A stretch of 64,000 nt of DNA, taken from assembly GCA_023014365.1 (NCBI GenBank), contig JAEBUN010000028.1:636997-700996 (forward strand). Reading direction: 5' to 3'. The notes under the pieces are model-generated. The model was not told the DNA's origin. It saw nothing but the letters and a program-made list of their open reading frames with translations, and made no database searches. This DNA comes from Lepiota brunneoincarnata (taxonomy: Eukaryota; Basidiomycota; Agaricomycetes; Agaricales; Agaricaceae). The translations under genes were made by a program, and so were the position numbers. Below, piece after piece: positions 4,950-50,881 of this stretch. Each line of letters starts with the position of its first letter. The stretch's first letter is position 1.

Positions 4950-5460
4950 TTAAATGGCTGAACAACAGCTGAAATAGTCAAGAAAGATAAGTGGTGGCTC
5001 AGCTTAGTGAACAGCAGCTAGAACAGCCAAGAAATCCAAGCCATCCAGCTACCTGACCAACTGAATGGCAGCTAAATAGTCACAAAAGATCAGCAGCAGC
5101 TCAACTGGGTGAACGGTGGCTGGATCACTCAAGAGATTCAAGTTATTAGACTAGTAGGATATATCTATATGTGCATGTCTGAAGTCATCTAGCTAGAATA
5201 GTCAAGAAAGGTCAGCAGTGGCTCAACTGGGTGAATGGCAGCTGGAACGCTCAAGGGATTCAAGTCATTAGACTAGTAGAATATACCTATATGTGCATGT
5301 CTGAAGTCATCTAGCTAGAATAGTCAAGAAAGGTCAGTGGCGGTTCAACTGGGTGAACAGTGGCTGGAACACTCAAGAGATTCAAGTCATTGGACTAGTA
5401 GAATATAGATAATCTATATGTGCATGTGGAGTCATCTGGCTGCTTGACTGAAGATGAATA
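4950..5460. repeat. 144-bp repeat array, inverted orientation
   Basis: About three units of the left-end repeat in reverse complement, recognised by TGTCTGAAGTCATCTAGCTA at about 5177 and 5299. Together with the array at 1-620 it gives the enclosed region inverted subterminal repeats. Confidence 0.8.
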
Positions 5461-5462
5461 GT

Positions 5463-5850
5463 CAATACTTGAGTGCTCCAGCCGCCGTTCACCTGGTTGA
5501 GCTGCTGCAGACCTTTCTTGACTATTCAGCTGTCATTCAGTCAGTCAAGTAGCTAGATGACTTCACACATGTATGGATATATTCTATTAGTTTAATGACT
5601 TGAATCCCTTGAGTGCTCCAGCCACTATTCACCCAGTTGAGCTGCTGCTGACCTTTCTTGACTATTCTAGCTAGATGACTTCAGACATGCACATATAGAT
5701 ATATTCTACTAGTCTAATGACTTGAATCTCTTGAGTGCTTCAGCCACCATTCACCTGGTTGAGCCACCACTGACCTTTCTTGAATACCCAGCTGCCACCA
5801 TGTCAGTCAAGTAGCTGGACAATTTCACACATGCATCTAAAGATATATTC
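5463..5850. repeat. 144-bp repeat array, forward orientation, second block
   Basis: Forward units resume at about 5463 directly after the inverted block, forming a head-to-head palindromic junction. This may be the left end of a neighbouring copy that contains the TET/JBP-like gene. Confidence 0.75.
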
Positions 5851-8654: not shown

Positions 8655-8928
8655 TATGGTATGCTAGGGCCCATTGAAAATGCTGTCCACTAGGTCTATC
8701 TAGTTTAGAGATACTTACTGCAGGAGCTTGCCAAAAGCCTGTCTCACTGAGTAGTATAAAGTTTTATTGCATTGTTCAGAAGCTGTAGCGTGCTAGGACC
8801 TGTTAGATAATGCTGTCTGCTAGGCCTACTAGCTTAAAGACACTTACTGCAGGAGCTTGTCAAAAGCCTATCTCGCTGGGTAGTGTAAATTTATAGTATT
8901 GTCAAGAGAAAAGGATGTAGTATGCTAG
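8655..8928. repeat. Tandem repeat of about 130 bp hosting the copy 1 insertion
   Basis: The word GCTAGG recurs at 8663, 8792 and 8924, with matching following sequence (TTACTGCAGGAGCTTG and AAAAGCCT). Copy 1 sits inside the third unit, which continues after 16814. Confidence 0.7.
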
Positions 8929-9591
8929 TGTCATATCCACACCAAACCTAGAGCTTAACCATTAGGCTTCGGCTTCTCGACTCCACGTGTGCTCCACACG
9001 ACAACCCTATGCCCTCCGACTCGGCCCCGACTGGCTCCGACCGCAACCCTTCGCCCCGATCACGCGACCTACTTCTACACGTGCCACGACCACCTGACCC
9101 TCGGTGCTCCCATTGTCCAGTTCTCCATTCTCCGTCCGTAATCAGAATACGTTACCAGTCTCCATACCCGTACCGGTCTCCATTCCATTCGAAATTATTC
9201 GTAATCCGCTTGTAACCATATGGGTCTCCGCTTCGCTCCGCACGTAGTCAGTACGAGTCATCATTCGTCGAGCTAGTAGTATATATACCGTAGGCACTTG
9301 GCTTGTACTCCTCAGTCTGATAATCGAATCGAGCAGCGGACCAGCTCCCTGTTCCATATCCTCTCCTCTCTTCTGCCTCGCTCCGCTTCGGCTCCGACTT
9401 CCTGAAATACGGACTAGGACAGTAGGAGGGCACAGCACATAAGCTGAGGCCGCAAGTCCAACCCCCCGCCCGACGTACTCCGCCTCGGTCCCGAAGTCTA
9501 CGTACTGACTTCGCCCTGTCCCCCGGTTACCTTATACCAAGGATACCACCCCGACCCTCCGCTTCGGTTCCGACCCGCACCGGCTCTAACA
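8929..9591 (+). repeat. 5' LTR of copy 1
   Basis: Begins TGTCATATCC and ends GGCTCTAACA, 663 bp. A TATATATA box at 9280-9287 is a plausible promoter. The LTR is rich in CGG/CCG triplets. ORFs of 60-100 codons inside it recur in the other LTRs and are taken as chance. Confidence 0.95.
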
Positions 9592-9644
9592 GTATTATCA
9601 GACTCAAACTCCTCCTGTCCACCACACTCTGAATTTTTCTAACC

Positions 9645-11051
9645 ATGGTCTCTCGAACAGTTACCCGTACTCGCACTCTCGTAACTCCAGCCGCTCGCCG
9701 TAGCAAACGCATCACTCGACAACCTCCTTCCGAGGAACTGCAACCCGACTCCCCGAGGGCTTCTCGCTCTCACCAACAATCGATTGCACCCTCGACCCCA
9801 GACCGTTTCTCTGAAGATATACAACCTTCAGTATTCCGGACTCCCGACGGCCCCAATGATGGCCCCGACCCCAATCCTGATCCCAGCGACCCTGGTGATC
9901 CCGACGACTACCCTGACAATGGGGACGGGCCCCCGGGCGACGACGAACCATCAGACAACGGCGACAACAACAACAACATCCCACCTGGCAACACCCGAGA
10001 CGACCATGATAGACTCATACTCCGAGTTTTCCAACGCATAGCCGACCAAATGGACGGCCGTGGGAACTCTCAAGCCCCACAGCCTCCTCGATCTCCCCGT
10101 ACCAAAGCTCGAGAACCTGACATCTTTACAGGTTCCGACCCCGCCAAACTCAAACCCTTCCTCTTCCAATGTCGGCTCTATTTCCGTACTAACCCGGCCC
10201 AGTTCGCTATCCCCGCCACCAAGGTCAACTTCGCGTTGACATACCTCACAGGCGTGGCACAGCAACACTTCGAAATCGGCCTCGACGAGGCCGACAACCA
10301 CGGAATAATACACGACTGGATCGAGGACTGGGACCAGTTCACCCTGGAACTGCAGACCAATTTCGGTCCCGCGGATCCGACCGGAGAAGCTGCTGAGCAG
10401 CTCGACTCCCTCCGAATGCGCTACGACGAGAAGATCGCCGTCTACAACGTCGATTTCCTCCGTCTAGCTGGCCAACTCCGCTGGGGTGACGAAGTATTCT
10501 GTCACCGCTACTACAAAGGCCTCCCCGACCGCATCCAGGACATTCTGTCCAATCGGCCCGACGGCAAGCCCGACACCTTCATCGAAATGCGAGCAGCAGC
10601 GATGAAGATCGATGCTCGCTACTGGGAACGCCAACGCGAGAAGGCCCGCGCCAAAGCCGCTTCGGACCCGACCGCCTCTAGGAAACCTGGAGGCAACCCA
10701 TCCCCTTCCACCGCGACAAACCATCAACCTGCCGCCAAGCCTGCCAACAGTAACAACAAAGGCAGCACCCCCAGTAATAACATCTTCAAGGGCAATCCGC
10801 CCAACCCGTCCGCCAGTCAGAAATCGGCCCCGCCAAAGTCCGACCTTACTAGTAAACTTGGTAAGGACGGTAAATTAACCCCCGAGGAACGTCAACGACG
10901 TTTCGACAATAACCTCTGCCTTGTCTGCGCAGATCCCAATCACAGGGCTGCCAACTGTGACAAGAAGAAATTCCCTGACGCCAAGGCTAAAGGCCGACAG
11001 GCTCAGATTCCCGAGACAGACGCGCCGGCTCTTCCGAGCTCGGAAAAATAG
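9645..11051 (+). CDS. gag: Gag polyprotein of copy 1
   Basis: 468-residue structural protein that assembles the particle and binds the element RNA. The N-terminal third is Pro/Asp/Asn-rich. A Ty3-type retrotransposon gag domain spans roughly residues 150-300. A zinc knuckle C-x2-C-x4-H-x4-C (CLVCADPNHRAANC) lies at about 425-438. The start is the first ATG after the leader (AACCATGG context). The ORF ends in GAA AAA TAG, where a -1 shift would enter pol. Homologous but broken gag genes lie in copies 2 and 3. Confidence 0.93.
   Translation: MVSRTVTRTRTLVTPAARRSKRITRQPPSEELQPDSPRASRSHQQSIAPSTPDRFSEDIQPSVFRTPDGPNDGPDPNPDPSDPGDPDDYPDNGDGPPGDDEPSDNGDNNNNIPPGNTRDDHDRLILRVFQRIADQMDGRGNSQAPQPPRSPRTKAREPDIFTGSDPAKLKPFLFQCRLYFRTNPAQFAIPATKVNFALTYLTGVAQQHFEIGLDEADNHGIIHDWIEDWDQFTLELQTNFGPADPTGEAAEQLDSLRMRYDEKIAVYNVDFLRLAGQLRWGDEVFCHRYYKGLPDRIQDILSNRPDGKPDTFIEMRAAAMKIDARYWERQREKARAKAASDPTASRKPGGNPSPSTATNHQPAAKPANSNNKGSTPSNNIFKGNPPNPSASQKSAPPKSDLTSKLGKDGKLTPEERQRRFDNNLCLVCADPNHRAANCDKKKFPDAKAKGRQAQIPETDAPALPSSEK
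11042..11051 (+). promoter_or_regulatory. Putative -1 frameshift site at the gag end
   Basis: GGAAAAATAG forms G GAA AAA followed by the gag stop. Pol lies in the -1 frame and is open across the stop with no ATG before its protease. The same ten bases occur at the corresponding place in copy 2 (24899-24890) and copy 3 (39876-39885). Slippage itself is inferred. Confidence 0.55.
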
Positions 11052-14000
11052 TCGGCGGTCCTCAGGCCTCTGCACAGACTGAGGATCGCATTGAACTCTG
11101 CTGTGCTCCAGAGAGTTTCCGTCTCAATGCGTCTGCTCTTTCCAATCCAAACTCTCTTCATATTACATTAACTTCTCCTTTAGTTACTTTGTTACCCTCT
11201 GTTTCCGCTCCTGTACTCTCCGCTTCGGACCCGCTTTCTACAACAGACAATGTAGTTAGTTCTGACTTTTCTTCTTCTTTTTCTCCTTTCAAAGCTCTTG
11301 TTGATAGTGGTTCTACTCACTGTTTTGTGGACTCTTCTTTCGTTCGTTCTTATAGTATTCCAACCTCGTCCATCCCGGCTATTGAACTTCGGTTATTTGA
11401 TGGGACCTCAAACGCCTACATTACGGAACTTGCGCAACTGCCTGTATCCTTCCCCTCCGGTGAATCTATCATTTTGGACACTTATGTCACCCAGCTCGAC
11501 TCTTCCTGTTCTGTGGTCTTAGGACACAACTGGCTCACCCGCTACAATCCGTTGATTGACTGGGCTTTGGGCAGTATTACTTTCCGGCCATCCCTACTGG
11601 AGAATCCTGCTTCCGTCTCTACCTGCGTCGCACCCGCATCGGCTCCGCCTATGGCCGCCCCTGACTCTCCTGACCTAGGTTCACCACCCCTGTCTGGGAC
11701 CTCGTCCCAATCTGTCCCCCTTGCGAAACCGCACATCTCCTTGATAAACGCTCCTGCCTTTATCCGCGCTGCCAAGCTCCCTGGCTCCCAACAATTCCGA
11801 ATCAATCTTTCCGCCGCCTCCGCATCGGCCGCGTCCTCTGCTGTCTCCGAGGAACCGCCTGACCTCTCGTCCATCCCCGAGGAATACCACGAGTTCGCTG
11901 ACGTTTTCAGTAAATCGCGTGCTGACACACTTGCTCCACACCGCCCTTACGACCTCCAGATTAACCTAGAGGATGGCGGTCAGCCTCCGGTCGGTACCAT
12001 TTACTCCCTTTCACAATCGGAGCTTGGAGCTCTACGTGATTTTATTGACGAACATTTATCTATTGGTTTCATCCGCCCCTCCACTTCCCCTCATGGAGCC
12101 CCGGTCCTCTTCGTCAAGAAAAAGGACGGCTCCCTCCGCTTATGCGTTGATTTTAGAGGTCTCAACCGTATTACCAAGAAGGACCGCTATCCCCTTCCGC
12201 TCATCTCCGACCTCTTAGACTCCCCTCGCAAAGCTCGCGTATATACCAAGATCGACCTCCGCCACGCCTACCATCTTGTCCGCGTTGCTGACGGCGACGA
12301 ATGGAAGACCGCCTTTCGGACCCGCTACGGCTCCTTCGAATGGATGGTTATGCCTTTCGGCCTCACCAATGCCCCCGCCACCTTCCAGCGGTTCATGAAC
12401 GATATATTCAAGGACATGCTCGACGTCTGCGTTACTATCTACCTTGACGACATTCTGATATACTCCGACAACCATAGTATCCATCGTGACCAAGTCAAGG
12501 AGGTCCTCAAGCGGCTCCGCCAACACGGTCTATACGCCCGCCCTGACAAATGCCAGTTCCACTCTGACACAGTGGAATATCTCGGCTACATTCTCTCCCC
12601 CGACGGCCTCCGAATGGACCAATCTAAAGTCAAGACCATCCAGGAGTGGCCTGAGCCTAAGAAAGTCAAGGACATCCAGTCCTTCTTAGGCTTCGCCAAT
12701 TTCTACCGTCGCTTCATTCACGGATACTCCGACATCGTCGTTCCGCTCACTCGCCTCACCCGCAAAGACGTGAAGTGGAATTTTACTGATGATTGTCGCG
12801 AGGCCTTTAACTCCCTGAAGGAAGCATTTATCTCCGCCCCCGTCCTCACTCCTTGGGTCCCCGACGCTCAGATCATTGTCGAGACCGACGCCTCCGACTA
12901 CGCCCTTGCGGCAATCCTCTCTATCGTCACCGACGATGGGGAGGTCCATCCCGTTGCATTCCATTCCCGCACCTTTAACACGGCCGAACTCAACTATGAC
13001 ACTCACGACAAGGAACTCCTGGCGATATTCGAAGCCTTTCGCATCTGGCGGCACTATCTCGAAGGTGCCCCCCTTGCTATTGATGTGGTCACTGACCACA
13101 AGAACCTCGAATACTTCTGCACCACCAAGATCCTGACTCGCCGCCAAGCTCGTTGGTCCGAGTTCCTATCCCAATTCCACCTCGTCATCCGTTTCCGACC
13201 CGGCCGCCTCGGCACCAAGCCTGACGCCCTAACTAGACGATGGGACGTCTACCCTAAAGGGGGGAATAGCGACTATGCATCAGTCAACCCGCACAACTTC
13301 CGGCCTGTGTTCACTCACGAACAGCTCGCGGCCTCCGTCCGTGCCACCACTCTTTACGCCCCTTCCCTTTGCGCAGCTGTAGTCATGGACCTCGATCAGC
13401 TACACCGCGATATTCTCGCCGCCCTATCAGCGGATCCGACCGCTTCCGCCCATCTTGCCAGCCCAGAAGGCCGTTGGTCAGTTAATGATAAAGGTTTCCT
13501 CCTCTTAGACGACAGAATCTACGTCCCTGACGCCGACAATCTCCGACTTCGGGTCCTCCAGTACAAGCATGATCACGTCCTAGCCGGCCACTTCGGTCAG
13601 AATAAAACACTGGAACTCATCCGGCGCGAATACACCTGGCCTAGCGTCCGCACCTTCGTCAAGGATTTCTGTAAGTCTTGCGTCACCTGTATGAGGTCTA
13701 AACCCCAGCGCCATCGCCCCTACGGTCTCCTTAAGCAACTCCCCATCCCCGAACGCCCTTGGAATTCAATCTCCATGGACTTCGTCGAAAAACTTCCCGC
13801 CTCCTCCGGCTATGACGCCATCCTGGTAATCGTTGACAGACTCACCAAACAATCCCTCTTCATTCCGACTTATGATACCGTCACTTCCTCCGACCTCGCC
13901 CGCCTATTCGTCCTCCACGTCTTCTCTAAGCACGGCGTGCCCGAACATGTTACCTCCGACCGCGGCTCCGAATTCGTCTCCCACTTCTTCCGCTCATTGG

Positions 14001-14854
14001 GACAAGCCCTTGACATGAAGCTACATTTCACCTCGGGCTATCACCCAGAAGGCGACGGACAGACGGAACGCACCAACCAGACCCTGGAACAATACCTCCG
14101 GGTCTATTGTAACTACCAACAGGACAATTGGTCCGAATTACTACCCCTAGCTGAGTTTGCTTACAACAACGCTCCTAGTGCCACCACCGGTATCTCCCCA
14201 TTCTTCGCTAATAAAGGATACCATCCGAACATCACAGTTCATCCTGAACGCGATCTTGCCTCCGCCCGGGCCCGCCATTTTGCTGTTGATCTCGACGACC
14301 TACATACCACCCTGAAGTCCGAAATAGCGCTAGCCCAGCAACGTTATCAGACCTCCGCCGACGCCCGCCGACTCCCCGCCCCGGACTTCAAGGTTGGACA
14401 AAAGGTATTCGTGAAAGCCCAATTCTTCCGCACCACCCGTCCCTCCAAAAAACTCTCCGAAAAGTACCTTGGGCCTTATGAGATCATTGCACAAGCAGGT
14501 ACTCACTCCCTTACACTCCGACTTCCCGACTCCATGCGTGGAGTACACCCAGTCTTCCATGTTTCCATGCTCGAACCAGCCACACCTAACACCATACCCG
14601 CCCGATCGGATCCGCCGCCCGCGCCGGTTTCCATTGACGGTGAACCAGAATACGAGATTGCCCGCATCGTCGACTCTAAGATCGATCGGCGCCGCGCGTG
14701 CAAGCTCCTCTATAAAGTCATCTGGTTAGGTTACGAAGACACTGAAGAAGAGTCCTCGTGGTTGCCAGCCACCGAGCTTGAACATGCTATAGATCTCGTA
14801 GAGGCTTTTCATTCCTCTTACCCTGCAAAGCCTGGTCCTCTTCACTCACTTTGA
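11048..14854 (+). CDS. pol: Pol polyprotein of copy 1 (protease-RT-RNase H-integrase-chromodomain)
   Basis: Catalyses polyprotein cleavage, reverse transcription and integration. The frame has no ATG before its first domain and is probably a -1 fusion with gag. Residues are counted from the TTG at 11189. Aspartic protease [13 protein letters not shown] is at about 37-49. The RT has YLDD at 418-421. RNase H starts near ETDASDYALAA. The integrase has an HHCC zinc finger ending CKSCVTCMRSK. The catalytic triad is D864, D924 and E960 (D-D-35-E). A GPY/F-like segment (LGPYEII) follows, and a chromodomain spans about 1154-1205 (YEIARIVDSKID to SSWLPATEL), which places it among the chromoviruses that target modified chromatin. 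No internal stop. Confidence 0.94.
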   Translation: MVGGPQASAQTEDRIELCCAPESFRLNASALSNPNSLHITLTSPLVTLLPSVSAPVLSASDPLSTTDNVVSSDFSSSFSPFKALVDSGSTHCFVDSSFVRSYSIPTSSIPAIELRLFDGTSNAYITELAQLPVSFPSGESIILDTYVTQLDSSCSVVLGHNWLTRYNPLIDWALGSITFRPSLLENPASVSTCVAPASAPPMAAPDSPDLGSPPLSGTSSQSVPLAKPHISLINAPAFIRAAKLPGSQQFRINLSAASASAASSAVSEEPPDLSSIPEEYHEFADVFSKSRADTLAPHRPYDLQINLEDGGQPPVGTIYSLSQSELGALRDFIDEHLSIGFIRPSTSPHGAPVLFVKKKDGSLRLCVDFRGLNRITKKDRYPLPLISDLLDSPRKARVYTKIDLRHAYHLVRVADGDEWKTAFRTRYGSFEWMVMPFGLTNAPATFQRFMNDIFKDMLDVCVTIYLDDILIYSDNHSIHRDQVKEVLKRLRQHGLYARPDKCQFHSDTVEYLGYILSPDGLRMDQSKVKTIQEWPEPKKVKDIQSFLGFANFYRRFIHGYSDIVVPLTRLTRKDVKWNFTDDCREAFNSLKEAFISAPVLTPWVPDAQIIVETDASDYALAAILSIVTDDGEVHPVAFHSRTFNTAELNYDTHDKELLAIFEAFRIWRHYLEGAPLAIDVVTDHKNLEYFCTTKILTRRQARWSEFLSQFHLVIRFRPGRLGTKPDALTRRWDVYPKGGNSDYASVNPHNFRPVFTHEQLAASVRATTLYAPSLCAAVVMDLDQLHRDILAALSADPTASAHLASPEGRWSVNDKGFLLLDDRIYVPDADNLRLRVLQYKHDHVLAGHFGQNKTLELIRREYTWPSVRTFVKDFCKSCVTCMRSKPQRHRPYGLLKQLPIPERPWNSISMDFVEKLPASSGYDAILVIVDRLTKQSLFIPTYDTVTSSDLARLFVLHVFSKHGVPEHVTSDRGSEFVSHFFRSLGQALDMKLHFTSGYHPEGDGQTERTNQTLEQYLRVYCNYQQDNWSELLPLAEFAYNNAPSATTGISPFFANKGYHPNITVHPERDLASARARHFAVDLDDLHTTLKSEIALAQQRYQTSADARRLPAPDFKVGQKVFVKAQFFRTTRPSKKLSEKYLGPYEIIAQAGTHSLTLRLPDSMRGVHPVFHVSMLEPATPNTIPARSDPPPAPVSIDGEPEYEIARIVDSKIDRRRACKLLYKVIWLGYEDTEEESSWLPATELEHAIDLVEAFHSSYPAKPGPLHSL

Positions 14855-14925
14855 GTTACTGACCACACATCGCACCAAGAAACAACCATGTATTAAACAA
14901 ACCAAAAAAAAACAACCCCGTACAA

Positions 14926-16011
14926 CTACCTATCGGTGTCGTCTCCAGAGAGCCCGGGCGACCCATTCACTTCTTCCATCAAATCCTGCACCTCCTCCTC
15001 CGAAGCGGGCCCGACACTCCCCTCCGAACCCTCCGTCTCCGAAAAATTTCCACTCGACCAATTTCCGTCCACCTGAGCCTCCCAACGCCGTAGTTGCTCG
15101 TAGCAGCCAGCAAGCGACCCCATCTTGTCGACCTTTTCCCCCAACCGAGCGATGGACCGCTCAATTCGCACCTCCAGGGTGTAGATTTTCTTGACGGTCT
15201 CCTGGTGCCTTTCTTCGATGAGCCGTTTCAACTCTACAAGGTCCATCAATTGGCATCCATCATAATACAGGATCCCTTACTCACCTTCGAATTGCTGGCC
15301 CGACAAACCACCGGCCCCGCTCGGCTCCGTCTCCTCTTGACCCCCGCACCGTTTTTTCATTTTGCTGCACCGACGGCAACTCCTGGTGTTACTAAGAAAC
15401 TATCAGTATGTAGTCCGGAAATCCTCCAAAATGACTTACCCGCCGGCCACCTCACATGGGGCCCCGTCTCGCTGGCACCTCCAGCAGGGATTCTCGCCCC
15501 CGAATACGTGCGCATGGCCCCGTCGCGGGGCCGCCCTCGCCTTTGCCTTCCCCTTACCCTTACCCCCTGAATCCCTGGAGTCCTCCTCCCCCTCTTCCTC
15601 CTCGTCCCTCGCCTCATCCCTATCCGTATATTCGGAATCCGACTCCTCCGTATCTACTTGCATCGGGTCTTCCGACGGACGGCTCGACGAGGCCCCTGTG
15701 GTCGTCGCAACGAGTCGGGCCCGAATCGCCCGACGCTCTGCCTCGGCGGTTTCCTCTTGCTGCCTCCTGATCTCCTCCGCATATCGCTCCTTCGCGCGCT
15801 CTTCCGCTTGTCGCTGGCGCAGCTCTATGAGCCGCCGTCGCTCCTCCTCTTGGCGCTCTATTGCCAGCCGCCGCTCCTCCTCCTCTCGCCGTTCCTCTTC
15901 TTCTAGCCTCTCGATTTCGAGCCGCTCTCGTTCCTCTCGCTCCGCCTTCTCTCTCAGTAATCGCGCCTTGCGCTCCATAGCGGTCGGTTGACGGGATGGT
16001 TGTCTGCTCAT
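14926..16011 (-). CDS. Antisense spliced gene of the retrotransposon: coiled-coil Zn2Cys6 protein
   Basis: Three exons on the strand opposite gag-pol: 16011-15440, 15382-15285 and 15233-14926. Both introns are GT-AG, and the total is 978 nt, encoding 325 residues. Residues 10-130 are Arg/Glu-rich coiled coil, then an acidic stretch and a Lys/Ala-rich basic patch. A cluster with Cys at 176, 179, 186, 193, 196 and 203 (CWRCQRDGAPC, CRRCSKMKKRC) has exactly the GAL4-type spacing C-x2-C-x6-C-x6-C-x2-C-x6-C. A second coiled coil (ELKRLIEERHQE on) and an acidic tail follow. Intron 1 splits the cluster. A TATA-like box lies about 55 bp upstream. The homologue in copy 2 keeps all six Cys, intron sites and frame. 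DNA binding is inferred; regulation of the element is one possible role. Confidence 0.8.
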
Positions 16012-16060
16012 GGGGGTAGGAGGTTAAGTTGTGTCCTCTCAAATTCGAATCAGTTCACCT

Positions 16061-16071
16061 TTTTTTTTATA
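16061..16071 (-). promoter_or_regulatory. TATA-like box of the antisense gene
   Basis: On the minus strand TATAAAAAAAA lies about 50-60 bp upstream of the ATG at 16011, between the gene and the 3' LTR. Copy 2 keeps TATAAAAA at the matching place (19920). The gene therefore seems to have its own promoter outside the LTR. Confidence 0.5.
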
Positions 16072-16129
16072 CCCTCGTGGAATTTTCCGGTGGGCCCCGG
16101 TCTAGACCGCCTTGGGCCTCGAGGCTCGG

Positions 16130-16146
16130 CCCTAAAGGGGGGGCAC
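16130..16146 (+). other. Polypurine tract of copy 1
   Basis: CTAAAGGGGGGGCAC-like run directly before the 3' LTR, the usual primer site for plus-strand DNA synthesis. The same tract is conserved next to the LTR of copy 2 at 19845. Confidence 0.7.
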
Positions 16147-16809
16147 TGTCATATCCACACCAAACCTAGAGCTTAACCATTAGGCTTCGGCTTCTCGACT
16201 CCACGTGTGCTCCACACGACAACCCTATGCCCTCCGACTCGGCCCCGACTGGCTCCGACCGCAACCCTTCGCCCCGATCACGCGACCTACTTCTACACGT
16301 GCCACGACCACCTGACCCTCGGTGCTCCCATTGTCCAGTTCTCCATTCTCCGTCCGTAATCAGAATACGTTACCAGTCTCCATACCCATACCGGTCTCCA
16401 TTCCATTCGAAATTATTCGTAATCCGCTTGTAACCATATGGGTCTCCGCTTCGCTCCGCACGTAGTCAGTACGAGTCATCATTCGTCGAGCTAGTAGTAT
16501 ATATACCGTAGGCACTTGGCTTGTACTCCTCAGTCTGATAATCGAATCGAGCAGCGGACCAGCTCCCTGTTCCATATCCTCTCCTCTCTTCTGCCTCGCT
16601 CCGCTTCGGCTCCGACTTCCTGAAATACGGACTAGGACAGTAGGAGGGCACAGCACATAAGCTGAGGCCGCAAGTCCAACCCCCCGCCCGACGTACTCCG
16701 CCTCGGTCCCGAAGTCTACGTACTGACTTCGCCCTGTCCCCCGGTTACCTTATACCAAGGATACCACCCCGACCCTCCGCTTCGGTTCCGACCCGCACCG
16801 GCTCTAACA
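16147..16809 (+). repeat. 3' LTR of copy 1
   Basis: 663 bp with TGTCATATCC and GGCTCTAACA ends. It differs from the 5' LTR only at 16388, a CpG to CpA change. Confidence 0.95.
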
Positions 16810-16814
16810 GCTAG

Positions 16815-19178: not shown

Positions 19179-19844
19179 TGTTAGAGCTGGTGTGGGTCAG
19201 GACTGAAGCGGAGGGTCAGGGTGGTATCCTTGATATATGTAAGGTAACTGGGGGACAGGGCAAAGTCAGTATGTAGACTTCGGAACCAAGGCAGAGTGCT
19301 TCAGGCAGGGGGTTGGACTTGCAGCCTCAGCTTATGTGCTGTGCCCTCCTACTGTCCTAGTCTGTATTTCAGGAAGTTGGAGCTGAAGCAGAGCAAGGCA
19401 GAAGAGAGGAGAGGATATGGAACAGGAAGCTGGTCCACTGCTCAATTTGATTATCAGACTGAAGAGTACAAGCCAAGTACCTATGGCATATATACTACTG
19501 GCCTTACAAACTATGACTTGTACTGACTATGTGCAGAGCAAAGCGGAGACCAATATAGTTACAAATGGATTACAAACGGATTACGAATGGAATGGAAACC
19601 AGTACAGGTATGGAGACTGATAACGTATCTTGACTATGGATGGGAAATGGAGACTGGGAATTAGAGACACCAAGGGTCAGGTGACCACAGCACGTGTGGA
19701 GGTGGTCATGTGATTGGGGCAGTGGGTTGCAGTCAGAGCAAGTCAGGGCCAAGTTGGAGGGCAGAGGGTTATTGTGTGGAACACACATGGAGTTGAGAAG
19801 CAGAAGTTTAAGTGATTAGACTCTGAGTTGGCGTGGATATGACA
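19179..19844 (-). repeat. 3' LTR of copy 2
   Basis: 666 bp, starting TGTTAGAGCTGG and ending GGATATGACA on the plus strand. Followed by the conserved polypurine tract in reverse. Confidence 0.93.
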
Positions 19845-19975
19845 GTGCCCCCCCTTTAGGACTGAGCCTCAAGGCCCAAGGTGGTCTAGGCCGGGGCCCA
19901 TTGGAAAGTTCCAGTAGGGTATAAAAATGGTGAACTGGTTCAATTCCAAAAAACACAACTTGACCTCCTACTCCC

Positions 19976-21012
19976 ATGAGCAGACAACCCTCCCAACAAC
20001 CGACTGCCACAGAGTGCAAGGTGCAATTGTTGAGGGAGAAGGCAGAGCAAGAGGAATGAGAGTGGCTAGAAATCGAGAGGCTGGAGGAGGAGGAGCAATG
20101 AGAGGAGGAGCAGCAGCAGCAGATGATAGCACTGCGTCAGCGACAAGTGGAGGAGCAGGCGAGGGAGTGTATGGCAGAAGAGATCAGGCAGCAACAAGAT
20201 GAGGCTGCCGAGGCAGAGCATCAGGTGATTTGGGCCCAACTCATTGCAATGACTGCAGGGGCTTTGTTGAGCCACCTGCCGGAAGAACCAATGGAGGTAA
20301 ATATAGAGGAGTCAGGTTCCAATTACATAGATAGTAATAAGATGGAAGATGAGGGGGAGGAGGAGGTAGAGGCCTCCAGGGATACAGGGAGTAAGGGAAA
20401 GGCAAGGGCAAGGGCAGCCCTGCGATGGGGCCATGTGAACATATTTGGGGGTGAGAACCCCTGCTGGAGGTGCGAGCAAGATGGGGTCCAGTGCGAGGTC
20501 GCTGGCGGGTGAGTCGTTTCTTGAAGGTTTCTGGGATACATACTGATAAGGTTTTTAGTAACACCAGGAGTTGCCATTGGTGTAGTAAAATGAAGAAACG
20601 ATGTGGAAGCCAAGAGGAGATGGAGCCAAGTGGGGCCAGTGGGTTGTCGGGCCAACAGTTTGAGGGTAAGTAAGGAGTCCTGTATTGTGATGTATGCTAA
20701 TCAGTGGGTGTTGTAGAGTTAAAACGGCTCATCAAGGAAAAACACCAGGAGACCATCAAAAAGGTCAACATCCTGGAGGTACGGCTCGAGCAGTCCATTG
20801 CTTGATTGGGGGAGAAGGTGGACAAGGTAGAGCAGGTGGCAGGCTGTTATGAGCAACTGCAGCATTGGGAGGTGCAGGTGGATCATAATTGGTTGAGTGG
20901 AAATGTTATGGAGACAGAGGAGAGCATTGGGGCCACCTTGGAAGAGGAGGTGCAGGGCTTGATGGAAGATGATGCTGCACAGTTGCCCAGCCCCTCTGGA
21001 GACAATAAGTAA
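19976..21012 (+). pseudogene. Decayed homologue of the antisense Zn2Cys6 gene in copy 2
   Basis: Exons 19976-20508, 20568-20665 and 20717-21012 total 927 nt, a multiple of three. Relative to copy 1 the first exon is 39 nt shorter and the third 12 nt shorter, while the second has the same 98 nt, so all length changes keep the frame. Three TGA stops (20057, 20099 and one near 20803) stand at positions of Arg in copy 1, as expected from CGA to TGA decay. All six Cys remain (CWRCEQDGVQC and CHWCSKMKKRC), as do the GT-AG splice sites and the TATA-like box. The gene was evidently under coding constraint before the element died. Confidence 0.75.
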
Positions 21013-21089
21013 TTTGGTAGTAGTTTTTGTTGTCTTTTCTTTTTTGATAAATCTTGTTGTTTCTTGGTGTGATGGTAATCAGTGGAAAC

Positions 21090-24000
21090 TCAGAGTGAAT
21101 GGAGGAGGCCAGGCTTAGTGGGGTAAGAGGAATGGAAAGCCTCTACTAGATCTATGGCATGTTCAAGCTCAGTAGCTGGTAACCATGAAGACTCTTCTTT
21201 GGTATCTTCATAACCTAACCAAATGACTTTGTAGAGGAGTTTGCATGTGCAGCGCCGATCAATCTTTGAGTCAATGATGCAAGTGATCTTGTATTTGGGT
21301 TTGCCATCAATAGAAACGGGCGCAGGTGGCAGGTCCAATCGGGTGGGTATGGTGTTAGGTGTAGCCCGTTCAAGCATAGAAACATGGAAAACTGGGTGTA
21401 CTCCACACATGGAGTTGGGGAGTCAGAGGGTGAAGAAGTGGGTACCTGCTTGGGCGATGATCTCATAGGGTCCAAGGAACTTTTCAGAGAGCTTTTTGGA
21501 GGGACAGGTGGTGCAGAAGAACTGGGCTTTAATGAACACTTTTTGCCCAACCTTGAAGTCTGGAGCCAGGAGATGGCAGGCATCGGTGGAGATCTGGTAT
21601 CATTGCTGGGCTAATGCTATTTCCGACTTCAAGGTTGTATGTAGGTCATTAAGATCAACCACAAAATAGCAGGCCCAAGCAGAGGCAAGGTCGAATTCAG
21701 GATGAACTGTGATGTTCAGATGGTATCCTTTATTAGTGAAGAATGGGGAGATACCGGTGGTGGCACTAGGAGTGTTGTTGTAAGCAAACTCAGCTAGTGG
21801 TAGTAATTTGGACCAATTGTCCTGTTGGTAGTTACAATAGACCCGGAGATATTGTTCCAGGGTCTGGTTGGTGCATTCCATCTGTCCATCACCTTCTGGG
21901 TGATAGCCCAAAGTGAAGTGTAGTTTCATGTTGAGGGCTTGTCCCAATGAATGGAAGAAGTGAGAGATGAATTCGGAGCTGTGGTCGGAGGTAAAATGTT
22001 CAGGTATGCCATGCTTGGAGAAGATGTGGAGGGCGAATAGGCGGGTGAGGTCAGAGGAAGTGACAGTATTGTAGGTGGGGATGAATAAGGATTGTTTGGT
22101 GAGTCTGTCAACTATTACTAGGATGGCATTGTAGCTGGAGGAGGTGTGGAGTTTCTTGATGAAGTTCATGGAGATTGAATTCCAAGGGCGTTCAGGGATG
22201 GGGAGTTGCTTGAGGAGACTGTAGGGGCAGTGGCACTGGGGTTTAGACCTCATACAGGTGACACAAGACTTACAGAACTCCTTGACAAAGGTGCGGACAC
22301 TAGGCCAGGTGTATTCACACTGGATGAGTTCCAGCATTTTATTCTGACTGAAGTGGCCAGCTAGGATATGATTGTGCTTGTACTGGAGGACCCAAAGTCG
22401 GAGATTGTCGGCATCAGGGACATAGATTCTGTCGTCTAGGAGGAGGAAACCCTTATTGTTGACTGACAAATAGCCTTCCAGGCTGGCAAGATGGGCAGAA
22501 GCAGTTGGGTCTGCTGGTAGGGTGGTGAGGATGTTGCGGTGTAGCTGATTGAGGTCCATGACTACAGCTGTGCGAAGGGAAGGGGTGTAAAGAGTGGTGG
22601 CATGGACAGAGGCTGCAAGCTGTTCATGAGTGAACACAGGCCAGAAGTTGTGTGGGTTGACTAATGCATAGTCACTACTCCCCCCTTTAGGGTAGACATC
22701 CCATTGTCTAGTTAGGGTGTCAGGCTTGGTGCCAAGGCAGCCGGGTTGGGACTGGATGACAAGGTGGAATTGGGATAGGAACTCAGACCAACAAGCTTGG
22801 TGGTGAGTAAGGATTTTGGTGGTGCAGAAGTATTTGAGGTTTTTGTGGTCGGTAACTACATCAATAGTAAGGGGGGCACCTTCTAGGTAGTGCCGCCAGA
22901 TACAAAAAGCTTTGAATATCACCAGGAGTTCCTTGTTGTGGGTGTCATAATTAAGTTCAGCCATGTTAAAGGTGCAGGAATGGAATGCAATGGGGTGGAC
23001 CTCACCATCATTGGTGATGATAGAGAGGATGGCCGCAAGGGTGTAGTTGGAGGCATCAGTCTCGACAATGATCTGAGCATCAGAGGCCCAAGGAGTGAGG
23101 ACAGGGGCAGATATGAATGCTTCATTCAGGGAACTGAAGGCTTTGCAACATTTGTCAGTGAAATTCCATTTCATGTCTTTGCAGGTGAGGCGAGTGAGCG
23201 GAACAACAATGTTGGAGTAACTGTGAATGAAGTGACGGTAGAAATTGGCGAAACCTAAGAAGGACTGGATGTCCTTGACTTTCTTGGGTTCCGGCCACTC
23301 CTGGATGGTCTTGACCTTAGATTGGTCCATTTGGAGACCGTTGGGGGAAAGGATGTAGCTGAGGTATTCCACTGTGTCAGAGTGGAACTGGCATTTGCTG
23401 GGGTAGGCATATAGACTGTGTTGTTGGAGCTGCTTGAGGACCGCCTTGACTTGGTCACAATGGATACTATGATTGTCAGAGTATATCAGAATGTTGTCAA
23501 GATAGATAGTAATGCAGATGTCAAGCATGTCCTTGAATATATTGTTCATGAACTGCTGGAAGGTGGCAGGGGTGTTAGTGAGGCCAAAAGGCATAACCAT
23601 CTATTCAAAGGAGCTGTAGTGGGTCCGAAAGGCAGTCTTCCATTCGTTGCCATCAGCAACACAGACAAGATGGTAAGTGTGATGGAGGTCAATTTTGGTA
23701 TATACGCGGGCTTTGTGAGGGGAGTCTAAGAGGTTGGAGATGAGTGGAAGGGGGTAATGGTCCTTCTTGGTAATATGGTTGAGACCTCTAAAATCAACAC
23801 ATAAATGGAGGGAGCCATCCTTTTTCTTTATGAAGAGGACTGGGGCTCCATGAGGAGACATGGAGGGGCAAATGAAGCCAATAGATAAATGTTTGTCAAT
23901 GAAATCACATAGAGCTCCAAGCTCTGATTGTGAAAGGGAGTAAATGGTACTGACTGGAGGTTGACTGCCATCCTCAAGGTTAATCTGGAGGTCATAAGGG

Positions 24001-24899
24001 CAGTGTGGAGCAAGTGTGTCAGCATGCAATTTACTGAAAACATCAGTGAACTTGTGGTATTCCTTGGGGATGGATGAGAGGTCAGCTAGGTCTTCGGAGA
24101 CAGAAGAGGATGCAGCCGATGCAGAGGCAGTGGAGAGATTGATTTGGAATTGTTGGGAACCAGGGAGCTTGGCAGCACGGATAAAGGCAGGGGCATTTAT
24201 CAGGGAGATGTGTGGTTTTGCAATGGGGACAGATTGGGACGAGGTCCCAGACAGGGGTGGTGAACCTAGGCCAGGAGTGTCAAGGGTGGCCATAGGCAGG
24301 GCCAATGCGGGTGCGATGCAGGTAGAGATGAAAGCAGGATTCTCAAGTAAGGATGGCTGGAAAGTGATACTGCCCAAAGCCCAGTCAATCAACAGATTGT
24401 AGCAGGTGAGCCAGTTGTGTCCTAAGACCACAGAACAGGAAGAGTTGAGCCAGGTGACATAAGTGTCCAAGATAATAGATTCACTGGAGGGGAAAGATAC
24501 AGGCAGTTGCGCAAGCTCCATAATGTAGGCATTTGAGGTCCCATCAAATAACCAAAGTTCAATAGCCAGGATGGACAAGGTTGGAATACTATGAGAACAA
24601 ACAAAAGATGAGTCCACAAAACAGTGAGTAGAACCACTATCAACAAGAGCTTTGAAAGGAGAAAGAGAAGAGAAATCAGAACTAACTACATTGTCCGTTG
24701 TAGAAAGTGGGTCCGAAGCAGAGAGTACAGAAGCGGAAACAGAAGATAAAGAAGTAACTAAAGGAGAACTTAATGTAATGTGAAAAGAGTTCAGGTCAGA
24801 AAGAGTGGATGCATTGAGACGGAAACTCTCTGGAGTACAGCAGAGTTCAATGCGATCCTCAGTCTGTGCAGAGGCCTGAGGACTGCCAACTATTTTTCC
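21090..24899 (-). pseudogene. pol: Pol pseudogene of copy 2
   Basis: The frame from the gag-end slip site (24899-24890) through protease (VDSGSTHCF), RT, RNase H, integrase and chromodomain is recognisable but interrupted. A TAG replaces the Trp of EWMVMPFG at about 23598, a TGA interrupts near 21600, and another stop is near 21410. YLDD reads YLDN. Most replacements (R to Q/H/C, D to N, G to S, A to T) are those expected from CpG decay. The chromodomain segment (21410-21090) is intact. Confidence 0.9.
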
Positions 24900-25530
24900 A
24901 AGCTTGGGAGAGCTGGTGCATCTGTCTCGGGGAGCTGAGCCTGTTGGCCTTTAGCCTTGGCATCAGGGAATTTCTTCTTGTCACAGTTGGCAGCCCTGTG
25001 ATTGGGATCTGTGCAGACAAGGCAGAGGTTATTGTTGAAATGTTGTTGACATTCCTCAGGGGTTAATTTACCATCCTTACCAAGTTTACTAGTAAGGTCG
25101 GATTTGGACAGGGCTGATCTCTGACCAGCGGATGGGTTGGGCGGAGTACCCTTGAAGTTGTTGTTGCTGGGGGTGCTGCCTTTGTTGTTACTGTTGGCAG
25201 GCTTGGTGGCAGGTTGTGTGTTGGACAAGGTGGATGGGGATGGATTGCCTCCAGGTTTCCCTTCTCATGCTAGTGTTCCCAATAGCAGGTGTCGATCTTC
25301 ATTGCTGCTGCCTGCATTTCAATGAAGGTGTTGGGTTTGCTGTCGGGCCAATTGGACAGGATGTCCTGGATGCAGTTAGGGAGGCCTTTGTAGTAGTGGT
25401 GACAAAATACTTCATCACCCCAGTGGAGTTGGCCAGCTAGGTGGAGAAAGTCAACATTGTAGACAGCAATCTTCTCGTTGTAGCACATTCGGAGGGAGTC
25501 AAGCTGCTCAGCAGCTTCTCCGGTCAGATC
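24890..25530 (-). pseudogene. gag: Gag pseudogene of copy 2, 3' part
   Basis: Encodes the C-terminal half of Gag including the knuckle remnant CLVCTDPNHRAANC. It is broken at 25531 by element B. A frame change lies near 25250. Confidence 0.85.
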
Positions 25531-25535
25531 TGCAG

Positions 25536-26036
25536 TGTAAGGGTGACCTGGCTGCTGTGTTGCATCAGCTGAGCAGGGAGAAACCTTAGTATCATTTCCA
25601 GACTTCTACCAAGTACATACCTGAGCAGGGAGAAACCTTAGAGAATCAAGTAAGGTTTCTCCAAGCTCACCTACACTACTTATACTACCTGCCATAAGGT
25701 CCAAGTTGAGTAATTTACTCTACATAAATGGCTGTGAGGTGTCAGGGATGCCTAAAGTAAGTATAGTTGGGAATGGGCTCAGGATAGGGTCATGCATGCC
25801 AGTGAGGGTTTGCGTCTGCATTGGAGGGGTGTAGGAGGGAATTCCAAGTACTGGGGTGTTGGGGGACAGATTTCTGGGCCCAGGGGGGCTGGAAATCGGA
25901 TTTCTGAGTGCAGGAGGGCTGGGGATTAGATTTCTGAGTGCAGGAAGGCTGGAAATTGGATTTCCAGGTGCAGGAAGTCTGGGAATCAGAATTCCAAATC
26001 TGCAGTTGTGAGCAATGACCTGGAGTTCCCCTTACA
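25536..26036 (-). repeat. 3' LTR of element B
   Basis: 501 bp. It contains four units of a 30-bp repeat (GATTTCTGAGTGCAGG type) near 25885-26005, against two in the other LTR. Confidence 0.9.
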
Positions 26037-32527: not shown

Positions 32528-33188
32528 TGTTAGAGCCAGTGCAGGTCAGGACCAAAGCAGAGGGTTGGGGTGGTATCCTTGATATAAGGTAACCAGGGGA
32601 CAGGGCGAAGTCAGTATGTAGACTTCAGAACTGAGGCAGGAGTACTTTGGGCAGGGGGTTGGACTTGCAGCCTCAGCTTATGTGCTGTGCCCTCCTACTG
32701 TCTGAGTCCATATTTCAGGAGGTCAGGGCCAAAGCAGAGCAAGGCAGAGAAAGAAGGATATGGAACAGGGAGCTGGTCCACTGCTTGATTTGATTATCAG
32801 ACTGAGGAGTACACGCCAAGTACCTACAGGTATATATACTACTGGCCTTACAAACTATGACTTGTACTGACTATGTGCAGAGCAAAGCGGAGACCAATAT
32901 AGTTACAAACAGATTACAAACAGATTACAAATGGAATGGAAACCAGTACAGGTATGGAGACTGATAACATATCTTGACTACAGACAGGAAATGGAGACTG
33001 GGAATTAGAGATACCAAGGGTCAGGTGACCACAGCATGTGTGGAGGTGGTCGCATGATCAGGGCAGTGGGTTGCGGTCGGAGCAAGTCGGGGCCGAGTCA
33101 GAGGGCAGAGGGTTGTTGTGTGGAACACATATGGAGTCGAGAAGCAGAGGTTTAAGTGATTAGACTCTGAGTTGGTGTGGATATGACA
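32528..33188 (-). repeat. 5' LTR of copy 2
   Basis: 661 bp with the same ends as the other LTR of copy 2. CpG-poor compared with copy 1. Confidence 0.92.
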
Positions 33189-37110: not shown

Positions 37111-37770
37111 TGTCATATCCATGCCAACCCAGAGCCTAATTGTTAAACTTCAGCTTCTCAACCCCATGTGTGCTCCCACATGACAACCCTTTGCCCACCA
37201 ACTCAGCCCCAACTCACTCCAACTACAACCCATCGCCCTGGTCATGTGACCACCTCTGCACATGCCATAGTCACCTGACCCTTGGTATCTCTATATCCCA
37301 GTTCTCCATTCTCTGCCCATAGTCAGGGTATGTTACCAGTCTCCATACCTGTACCGGTTTCCATTCCATTTGTAACCTGTTCATAATCTGTTTGTAACCA
37401 TATTGGTCTCTGCTTTGCTCCACATGTAGTCAGTATGAGTCATAGTTCGTAAGGCCAGTAGTATATATACTGTAGGTACTTGGCATGTACTCCTCAGTCT
37501 GATAATCAAATCAAGCAGCGGACCAGCTCCCTATTCCATATCCTCCTTTCTCTGCCTTGCTCTGCTTTGGCCCTGACCTCCTGAAATATGGACTCGGACA
37601 GTAGGAGGGCACAGCACATAAGCTGAGGCTGCAAGTCCAATCCCCTGCCCGAAGTACTCTGCCTTGGTCCTGAAGTCTACATACTGACTTCACCCTGTCA
37701 CCTGGTTACCTTATATCAAGGATACCATTCCAACCCTCCGCTTTGGTCCCAATCCACACTGGCTCTAACA
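37111..37770 (+). repeat. 5' LTR of copy 3
   Basis: 660 bp, TGTCATATCC to GGCTCTAACA. CpG sites of copy 1 are mostly TG or CA here. Confidence 0.92.
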
Positions 37771-37797
37771 GTATTATCAGACTCAAACTCCTCCTGT

Positions 37798-38458
37798 TGT
37801 TAGAGCCGGTGCGGGTTGGGACCGAGGCGGAGGGTCGGGGTGGTAACCTTGTTATAAGGTAACCGGGGGACAGGGCGAAGTCAGTACGTAGACTTCGGGA
37901 CCGAGGCGGAGTACGTCGGGCGGGGGGTTGGACTTGCGGCCTCAGCGTATGTGCTGTGCCCTCCTACTGTCCTAGTCCGTATTTCAGGAAGTCGGGGCCG
38001 AAGCGGAACGAGGCAGAAGAGAGGAGAAGATAGAGAACAGGGAGCTGGCCCACTGCTCGATTCGATTATCAGACTGAGGAGTACAAGCCAAGTACCTACG
38101 GTATATATACTACTGGCCTTACGAACTATGACTCGTACTGACTACGTGCGGAGCGGAGCGGAGACCGATCTAGTTACAAACGGATTACGAACGGATTACG
38201 AATGGAATGGAAACGGGTACAGGTATGGAGACTAATAACGTATCTTGACTACGGACGGGAAATGGAGACGGGGGTATGAGACACCGAGGGCCAGGTGACC
38301 ACGGCACGTGTGGAGGTGGTCGCGTGATCGGGGCAGGGGGTTGCGGTTGGAGCAGGTCGGGGCCGAGTCGGAGGGCAGAGGGTTGTTGTGTGGAACACAC
38401 GTGGAGTCGAGAAGCCGAAGTTTAAATGATTAGACTCTGAGTTGGCATGGATATGACA
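37798..38458 (-). mobile_element. Young solo LTR in the leader of copy 3
   Basis: 661 bp LTR in reverse (TGTTAGAGCCGG to GGATATGACA), flanked by perfect CCTGT duplications (37793-37797 and 38459-38463). It keeps its CpG sites, whereas the surrounding copy 3 has lost them. The internal part was presumably removed by LTR recombination. Confidence 0.92.
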
Positions 38459-49186: not shown

Positions 49187-50752
49187 CAGTAAGGGACAAA
49201 AACCTTCCAATGATTTTTATACTTCAATAAATATGTTAATAACTGCCCACCTACAAAAGATGAAACCTTCATATTTTAATTGGGAGTACTTATATAACTC
49301 ATATATCATCCTGCCAAATATCATTATGTCATATGCCATTTTGGGAAGTCAGTGAATTAAACAATCATTTAAGGTTATTGGAAGGGTTTTGTCTATCTCT
49401 AAGAAATTACCAATAATTACACTTTTAGTACTTTGTATAACCTCCCCTGGCATCCAAGACAGCCTGAACCCTATCAGGCATACTCTCTATCAGATTCTGA
49501 TACACTTCTACTAGAATCTGTTCCATCTCCTGAGGTAGAGTATTATACTCCCCTAACTTGATTTTAAGGTGAATCCATAGATGTTCAATTTGATTGAGGT
49601 CTGGAGATTGTGGGGGCCATACCATAACCTCCATTTCAGCTGCTTTGAACCATTTTTGAGCCTTGATGCACCTATATTTAGGATTATTATCTTGTTGAAA
49701 GACAATATCCTCCACTCTTTGTCATACCACTCCAGGCTTCCCTCAAGTTCATCCTCCAAAATGGTGACAAATAGATCACCATCCATCTTACCATTAATCT
49801 TGGCTGCCAACCCTGGACCCTCCCACAGCATACAGCCCCATACCATGATAGAACCTCCTCCAAACTTTGTGGTTCCCTGCACCAGCCTATCACTAAGCCT
49901 CTCCCCTGCTCTTTTCCAGACCCAAACCCTGCCATCTGACCCTAAGCAATTGATTTTGGTCTCATCTGACCAAACCACCCTCTTCCAGTCTTCCAGAGTC
50001 CAGTCTGCATGTGCCTCTGCCCACTCCAGTCTTTTCCTCTTGTGTATAACAGAGCCTTTAGGCCTCTTCTGCTTGACTACAGCCTTCATTCCAGCTTTTT
50101 TGAGTGCTCTGCAAACCATTTTGGAGGATAGAGGTTGGTTAATGATGGTATGAAGGGTTCTGGTGATTTGGGAGGTATTTTAAGCCTTGTAGGATGTGAT
50201 AAGATAGGTAGCATATTTGATATTGCCAACAGAAAGCTTGGTTGGGTGGCCACCAAGTGACTTTGAAAGTGCTGAACAATGTTTGGAGTGAAGACAAGAT
50301 ATAGTGCTGAGGCCAAGACCAGTGGTAGAAGCAATATGGGTAGCAGAGTGGCCTTTATCCAAAAGGGAAAGAATATGGTTGCATTGAGTCATAGAAAGAG
50401 ATCACATATTAGCAAAATGAAGTTGGGGGGGTGGTGTGAGCCAGGGGAGTGAGCAGCTATATTTATACATTATTCCAACCAGTCACATGACATTTATTTG
50501 CACTTATTTGGCTGTAATAAACAAAATTGTGTAATTAGAGTAGAGATGGACAAAACCCTTCCAATGACCTTAAATGATTGTTTAATTCACTGACTTCCCA
50601 AAATAGCATATGACATAATGATATTTGGCAGGATGATATATGAGTTATATAGGTACTCCCAATTAAAATATGAAGATTTCATCTTTAGTAGGTAGGTAGT
50701 TATTAACATATTTGTTGAAGTATAAAAATCATTGGAAGGGTTTTGTCCCCTG
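49187..50752 (-). mobile_element. Tc1-like element Tc1-C nested in Tc1-B
   Basis: Left end CAGTAAGGGACAAAAACCTT. The right end is its inverse with three bases missing (TTTTGTCCCCTG). TA duplicates are at 49185 and 50753. The terminal repeats are about 210 bp and carry an outer and an inner ACAAAACCTTCCAATGA-like motif in opposite orientations. The transposase is on the minus strand. Confidence 0.87.
49425..50392 (-). pseudogene. Tc1-type DD34E transposase of Tc1-C
   Basis: Cut-and-paste transposase. It has an N-terminal helix-turn-helix (ILSLLDKGHSATHIASTTGL, 50392-50180) and the first catalytic Asp in VVWSDETKINCLGSDGR. The second Asp in FQQDNNPKY and the Glu in QIEHLW are 34 residues apart (DD34E). 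The frame is broken by a TAA near 50180 and a frame change near 49710. Otherwise it is well preserved and recently active compared with element A. Confidence 0.85.
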
Positions 50753-50881
50753 TATAATCACATATTGCATTTAATGTAATCAAATAAATGCAAATAAAAT
50801 CATGTGACCCTATAGGATAATGTATATATATAGGTGCTTACTTCCTATACTTAACCCAACTCCCCAATCTACTATACTCTA

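Follow-up and report, generated by a model that had tools for sequence, protein, structure and literature searches.

An intron-bearing antisense gene for a zinc-cluster-like protein, under selection, in a Ty3 chromovirus of Lepiota brunneoincarnata

A young chromovirus with a gene on its opposite strand

The window analyzed here, a 64,000-nt stretch of the basidiomycete Lepiota brunneoincarnata (assembly GCA_023014365.1, contig JAEBUN010000028.1, positions 636,997 to 700,996 of the forward strand), belongs to a genome of 55.6 Mb that comprises 95 contigs. It contains a complete and young Ty3 element at 8929-16809, whose two LTRs, of 663 bp each, show a sole mismatch at 9170 when the 5' copy is compared with the 3' copy. 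The initial annotation, made from the sequence before any database search, had called this element a Ty3 chromovirus, and the Pfam matches bear this out: the domains of pol follow the order protease-RT-RNase H-integrase required for a chromovirus, and a chromodomain (PF00385; ORF residues 1221-1275) lies C-terminal to the integrase with a score of 30.4 bits against a cut-off of 25.1. A CCHC-type knuckle is discernible by eye close to the end of gag. Pol ends at 14854, and the interval from there to the 3' LTR holds a further gene on the minus strand, with its ATG at 16011-16009, its stop at 14928-14926 and two short GT-AG introns. The features are as follows:

8924-8928 and 16810-16814, no strand: left and right target-site duplication, GCTAG, 5 bp (from the sequence)
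8929-9591, plus strand: 5' LTR, 663 bp
9645-11051, plus strand: gag (ORF; Retrotrans_gag, 37.5 bits, scanned from 9648)
10991-14854, plus strand: pol ORF with protease, RT, RNase H, integrase and chromodomain (ORF and Pfam)
14926-16011, minus strand: antisense gene, ATG to stop, three exons (ORF, splice sites, copies and dN/dS)
15440-16011, minus strand: exon 1, with E/R-rich helix, acidic stretch, Lys/Arg-rich stretch and first half of the Cys cluster (helix and stretches by eye)
15392-15439, minus strand: intron 1 in its preferred form, with GTAAGT, TACTGAT at 15402-15408 and TTAG (copy alignments)
15285-15391, minus strand: exon 2, with second half of the Cys cluster and linker (copy alignments)
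15234-15284, minus strand: intron 2, GTGAGT ... TTGTAG (30/30 copies, 17/17 loci, 12/12 lineage rows)
14926-15233, minus strand: exon 3, with coiled-coil-like stretch (by eye from heptads) and acidic tail
16064-16071, minus strand: TATA box TATAAAAA, 53 nt upstream of the ATG
16098-16109, no strand: palindrome CGGTCTAGACCG of the form CGG-N6-CCG, putative binding site within the antisense promoter (sequence and copies)
16116-16125, no strand: second palindrome GCCTCGAGGC (from the sequence)
16134-16143, plus strand: polypurine tract, 5' of the 3' LTR (by eye)
16147-16809, plus strand: 3' LTR, 663 bp
19976-21012, plus strand: broken copy of the gene with stops, in a second element, antisense to its minus-strand pol

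The second element, older and of the same kind, occupies 19183-25835 on the opposite strand, and its pol is 88% complementary to that of the first over 3585 nt. Elsewhere in the window there are LTR-like copies related to the LTR of the element (32528-33128, 37252-38399 and 51815-52418), repeat units of ~122-144 bp, some of them inverted, in groups ~4.5 kb apart (61-600 and 5038-5845), and two overlapping inverted repeat pairs at 49193-51568, one of 209 nt at 95% and the other of 320 nt at 75%.

Gene model and the acceptor of intron 1

The genomic copies compared below were picked by similarity to the gene in the window: a close set of the 30 best-matching copies (L009-L038, the window's own included) among 40 listed, and a second set of 16 further copies (L039-L054; L055 is the same copy as L037). 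The coordinates, the GT-AG introns and these copies uphold the three-exon antisense gene between pol and the 3' LTR that the initial annotation had described. Its exact length turns on intron 1, which has two in-frame acceptors 9 nt apart, TTAG (15392) and CCAG (15383). With CCAG, as first modeled, intron 1 ends at 15383 and the exons sum in frame to 572+98+308 = 978 nt, an open frame of 325 aa; this arithmetic is right, but the TTAG model, with 572+107+308 = 987 nt, 328 aa and a C-X9-C linker, is the more likely one.

The nine bases between the acceptors are identical in 30/30 close copies and encode Asn-Thr-Arg in 12/12 rows of a lineage alignment, where they vary only synonymously (TAACACCAG in eight rows, TAATACCAG in three and CAACACTAG in one). 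In the group of L039 the remaining part of intron 1 aligns poorly, yet Asn-Thr-Arg is retained: in 15 of the 16 copies of the second set the intron adjoining the kept nine bases is just 48-50% identical to that of the window (72% in the other). Since Asn-Thr-Arg was kept while the rest of intron 1 diverged, the TTAG acceptor is preferred, and the alignments support an intron 1 at 15439-15392 and a protein of 328 aa better than the CCAG alternative. The upstream AG occurs in 30/30 close copies and in 11/12 lineage rows, being missing from L069, a broken copy whose donor is GC, and the downstream AG occurs in 12/12, a pattern from which both acceptors may be in use.

Decay and selection among the genomic copies

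The splice sites are retained in 46/46 copies of the two sets (30 + 16). In the close set the ATG, the stop, both donors and both acceptors of the first model are intact throughout (30/30); in 21 copies the frame stays open up to the normal stop, with an in-frame 9-nt deletion in one of them, eight have premature stops and one has a one-base change close to the end. A change of CGA to TGA accounts for 7/8 of these premature stops. Across the gene region, CpG transitions make up 210 of the 313 changes among these 30 copies, an excess that has the character of methylation-type decay and suggests that the host methylates copies of the antisense gene. Among distinct coding variants of the 30 copies, those outside CpG comprise 9 that change an amino acid, 15 that do not and 1 stop (pN/pS 0.18), and those of the CpG type 72, 40 and 4, respectively.

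The second set is considerably more diverged, with exon 1 at 76-77% identity to the window in 15 copies and 85% in one. These 16 copies have eight different coding lengths, each divisible by three, keep GT and AG in 16/16 cases and are open throughout in 13/16. Of ten divergent loci, three (L072, L073, L075) have an uninterrupted frame from ATG to stop; the other seven, with stops, shifts or missing 5' parts, look like old decayed copies. Thus, diverged lineages of related elements within this genome do carry the gene, a point on which the initial annotation had made its proposal depend.

Substitution rates between lineages were compared among the window copy (W), L075 and the broken copies L074, L076 and L077, stop and gap codons being excluded. 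Whole-gene dN/dS is 0.22-0.40 in 10/10 pairs, and single parts of the gene give 0.16-0.64 in the same ten pairs, the highest value coming from L075-L076 over residues 1-150. The gene frame has a dN/dS of 0.27 in both exon 1 and exon 3 versus 0.44-1.29 in the five other frames. Between W and L039, exon 1 has dN 0.127 and dS 1.207 (ratio 0.11), and exon 2 has nine synonymous and zero amino-acid changes. Higher ratios occur on few changes: 0.60 for L044-L075 in exon 1 (15 changes) and 0.59 for W-L044 in exon 3 (three changes). A gene on the sense strand opposite was also considered and was rejected on the values of 0.44-1.29 in the sense frames.

The antisense ORF is a protein gene under selection and not a chance frame. 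A fortuitous frame opposite low-complexity sense sequence, for which the overlap with two sense ORFs, 158 and 216 aa long from stop to stop, might be cited, is counted as refuted by the dN/dS values, the splice sites kept in 46 copies and the lengths in threes, and has next to no probability left. An antisense transcript would overlap the 3' end of the element, and the RNA itself might be functional, through interference or dsRNA formation with the gag-pol RNA, with the frame being incidental; this is very improbable given that the gene frame is the lowest of the six, that the changes in exon 2 between W and L039 are 9:0 in favor of synonymous ones and that the eight lengths of the second set stay in multiples of three.

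Association with pol and deletion derivatives

Searches of the genome with the end of pol (best 150 of 948 first-look candidates) and with the gene (150 of 314 matches) show that the two travel together: among the matches listed, 120/150 pol ends have the gene 64-167 bp away, on the opposite strand in 120/120 cases. The 30 unpaired pol ends and 30 unpaired genes are an upper bound among the matches listed; seven of these 30 pol ends were checked, and one (L083) does have the gene. This association bears on the idea that the element picked up a host gene recently and carries it as a mere passenger, for which the 25 Zn_clus matches elsewhere in the genome could provide a source. The measured selection and age count against it: the gene adjoins pol in diverged lineages, with an exon 1 dS of up to 1.2, and among the matches listed 0/25 Zn_clus matches fall at the window's gene or its copies; such an origin has very little probability.

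Three of the checked places (L079-L081) have a gene with an in-frame internal deletion (and a stop in L081), of which only the start and the acidic C-terminal end are left, without the Zn cluster or the introns. Their pol frame is 1286 aa long, with a pol-end protein 98-99% identical to that of the window. In L082 there remain 28 C-terminal residues and in L084 the start and a C-terminal piece, and a search for a gene remnant at L085 gave no match. Because copies without the Zn cluster have an open pol, the antisense gene is dispensable in cis, and deleted copies of this kind are compatible with a product acting in trans.

Such derivatives at several places are also what the loss of a repressor would permit. 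The gene product could be a copy-number or latency repressor that damps sense transcription, with a possible addition from the antisense transcript, and the layout, antisense, spliced and coming from the side of the 3' LTR, resembles that of HTLV-1 HBZ as described in PMC3185765. A freely losable repressor should decay, yet the selection between lineages is strong, and we hold this reading to be rather unlikely.

Parts of the gene have differing histories. Across L039-L054, identity to the window is 97-100% in exon 3 versus 76-85% in exon 1, and in L074, L077, L078 and L083 intron 1 can be 91-93% identical with exon 3 at 69-73%; we read these mosaics, from the alignments, as probable products of recombination between elements.

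Searches beyond the genome

A protein search with residues 150-325 returned 0/399 candidates at E <= 0.001; the method relies on shared exact words, and its reach is a few fungal genomes and the scored candidates only. With a six-piece profile built from different copies, 8000 candidates were scored and one, P0121, reached E <= 0.1; it is a 106-aa fragment from a 1275-nt ENA contig with 99% identity over 54% of the query. This match is unspliced, because it starts inside intron 2. The positive control, pol residues 1100-1287, gave 213/743 candidates, some named for Cyclocybe, Pisolithus and Trametes, so that the searched protein database does include fungal elements. Neither the gene profile nor the pol end matched anything in a scan of viral contigs. 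In the literature, the titles and abstract openings of the open-licence PMC articles listed contain no report of a fungal LTR element with an antisense or zinc-cluster gene, and the text of PMC10799480, a screen for co-option of fungal transposable elements, does not contain the terms Zn_clus, Zn2 or antisense.

The protein: a zinc-cluster-like motif with apparently swapped halves

The protein consists, by eye and in order, of an N-terminal E/R-rich helix, an acidic stretch, GKGKGKAKARAAPRRG, the Cys cluster, the coiled-coil-like part encoded by exon 3 and an acidic tail. In the 328-aa model the cluster reads CWRCQRDGAPC-EVAGGNTRS-CRRCSKMKKRC, and intron 1 falls between its third and fourth cysteines, in agreement with the original observation that an intron splits it. 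The Zn2Cys6 rule is C-X2-C-X6-C-X5-12-C-X2-C-X6-8-C, and the cysteine spacing conforms to it with a linker of X6 or X9, depending on the acceptor. The 325-aa model has C-X2-C-X6-C-X6-C-X2-C-X6-C; the exact GAL4 spacing claimed at the outset thus exists in the CCAG model but hangs on the less likely acceptor, the preferred linker being X9. The X6 pattern is present in 30/30 close copies and the X9 pattern in 17/17 loci (one of which is one of the 30); the broken divergent copy L069 has lost one Cys.

The comparison with Pfam Zn_clus (PF00172) that the initial annotation had proposed for its 325-residue protein yields 15.0 bits, under the cut-off of 21, and the 328-aa protein yields 14.3. A trimmed 46-aa piece reaches 22.2 bits, over the cut-off, and four pieces from other copies score 9.8-19.6 bits. 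In these weakly scoring alignments the first half of the cluster fits positions 15-31 (up to 36) of the profile and the second half positions 1-17, and the second half alone has no match to Zn_clus; the halves look to be in swapped order relative to the canonical Zn2Cys6 domain. Against the PDB, a profile search places Pho7, a second entry C27B12.11c and Ppr1 at E 0.48-0.81 among 12 matches up to E 10 that include unrelated proteins, and a single piece matches Pho7 at a non-significant E of 5.5 with unrelated matches alongside. Hence, of the original assignment to Zn2Cys6 the cysteine spacing stands, but the whole protein stays below the Pfam cut-off and its halves appear swapped, and "zinc-cluster-like" would be a fair label.

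Promoter and LTR motifs

The gene's own TATA-like box, already proposed in the initial annotation, is confirmed as a TATA box at 16064-16071, outside the 3' LTR. Sites of the PPR1 type have the form CGG-N6-CCG, and this form is found twice in the 135-bp promoter versus 0.1 expected. A 33-nt promoter block has 165 occurrences in the genome at <=3 mismatches (0 for the reversed control). Among 31 distinct variants, which represent part of the 165 places, are non-independent and were scored against the majority letter, non-CpG changes affect 2/186 cells in the CGG/CCG triplets versus 22/186 in the center, and CpG-type changes affect 21 cells in the triplets. The rest of the block is conserved too, beyond the half-sites, and the conservation may serve the polypurine tract. 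The CGG-N6-CCG palindrome is thus a candidate site of self-regulation.

On the gene strand, the 3' LTR has nine CGGAG versus 2.0 expected, a count reached by 0/1000 shuffles and inflated by repeats, together with 12 CGGA and two TCCG. The CGG motifs were chosen post hoc, after inspection. CpG retention in the LTR differs little between CGGA sites (55/89) and other CpGs (161/312), and the notion of LTR CGGA sites as selected targets was dropped to a mere lead in view of the post hoc pattern, the repeats and the similar CpG retention.

The Lys/Arg-rich stretch, the Cys cluster and the tight linkage to pol would also suit a cofactor of replication or integration that coats nucleic acid, assists in building particles or directs integration and has no part in transcriptional regulation. 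Such tasks have candidates in the element already, namely gag with its CCHC knuckle and pol with its chromodomain, and the separate promoter-like sequence and the introns favor a separate nuclear expression; we regard a cofactor of this kind as quite improbable.

Proposed function

On balance, it appears reasonably probable that the element encodes its own trans-acting DNA-binding regulator of itself. An mRNA would start from the TATA box, which lies in the gap separating the gene from the 3' LTR, run against gag-pol, be spliced twice and end close to the end of pol. The predicted protein, in which an E/R-rich helix and a basic nuclear-signal-like stretch precede a six-cysteine zinc cluster and a coiled coil and acidic tail follow it, would bind as a dimer to sites with CGG in non-coding parts of the element itself, the putative targets being the CGG-N6-CCG above its own TATA box and perhaps the CGGAG repeats of the LTR. 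The transcription of the element would be adjusted in this way, with activation or de-repression likelier than repression, a leaning that we base on the strong selection and on the CpG decay that suggests host methylation. A more specific version is possible but tentative, and we stop well short of calling it probable: a circularly permuted Zn2Cys6 activator or anti-silencer, encoded by an antisense, intron-bearing gene, that would act via CGG sites in the antisense promoter and the LTRs, in trans on all copies including the deletion derivatives.

Sense genomic RNA is not spliced at introns of the antisense strand, and such introns outlast retrotransposition. The antisense placement would let the introns persist, since the genomic RNA that is reverse-copied is of the other strand, and would thereby explain the retention of introns by a retroelement. 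The introns themselves suggest a separate antisense mRNA, and the role of such a gene becomes testable in a fungus. If the halves of the cluster are truly swapped, the protein offers a test of the tolerance of the Zn2Cys6 fold to permutation.

Comparison with known systems

GAL4-type cysteine spacing and the PPR1-type site are familiar from cellular regulators, and the fungal protein is like the GAL4, PPR1 and Pho7-type factors in its six-Cys spacing, followed by a coiled-coil-like stretch, and in the candidate CGG-N6-CCG site; it is unlike them in its sub-threshold Pfam score, its apparently swapped halves and its location in a retrotransposon. VANDALs, in turn, are DNA transposons. According to PMC5735166, VANC of an Arabidopsis VANDAL binds motifs in the non-coding DNA of its own element; the likeness lies in a transposon-encoded binder of own-element motifs, which in the case of the fungal protein is a prediction. 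Extra coding capacity in fungal Ty3 elements is itself on record, as a dUTPase in or at the ends of Pol and an "add. ORF" of unknown function (PMC2864245), and the present element is like these chromoviruses in that respect; the word "antisense" is absent from that text.

Antisense extra genes are already known from plants and deltaretroviruses, and what is added here is that selection has been measured and that the predicted DNA target lies in the same element. In plants, Retand elements have antisense ORFs in the interval from pol to the 3' LTR, with TRP28 in 97% of clusters; DNA binding by the TRP28 protein is said to be probable, the protein of Grande is nuclear, and the role of these plant genes is not known, as stated in PMC11963269. 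Like Retand, Grande and RIRE2, the fungal element belongs to Ty3 and has, between pol and the 3' LTR, an ORF that runs against gag-pol. Unlike Retand, a plant non-chromovirus with TRP28, it has a chromodomain, two introns in the antisense gene and a six-Cys cluster; TRP28 (PF04195) has no Pfam match in the fungal protein up to E 10, and the word "intron" is absent from the text of PMC11963269 on ORFs of the Retand type. In the deltaretroviruses, HBZ of HTLV-1 (and APH-2) is antisense, spliced, expressed from the side of the 3' LTR and a regulator of transcription, as PMC3185765 describes. HBZ differs in being of the bZIP type, a family absent from the Pfam matches of the fungal protein up to E 10, and in that its transcription starts within the 3' LTR, whereas the TATA box of the fungal gene is outside it. 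Thus, plant Retand and HTLV HBZ would be best viewed as analogues and not as relatives, and by analogy the antisense gene of the Lepiota chromovirus may work in a manner like that of Retand, HBZ and VANC.
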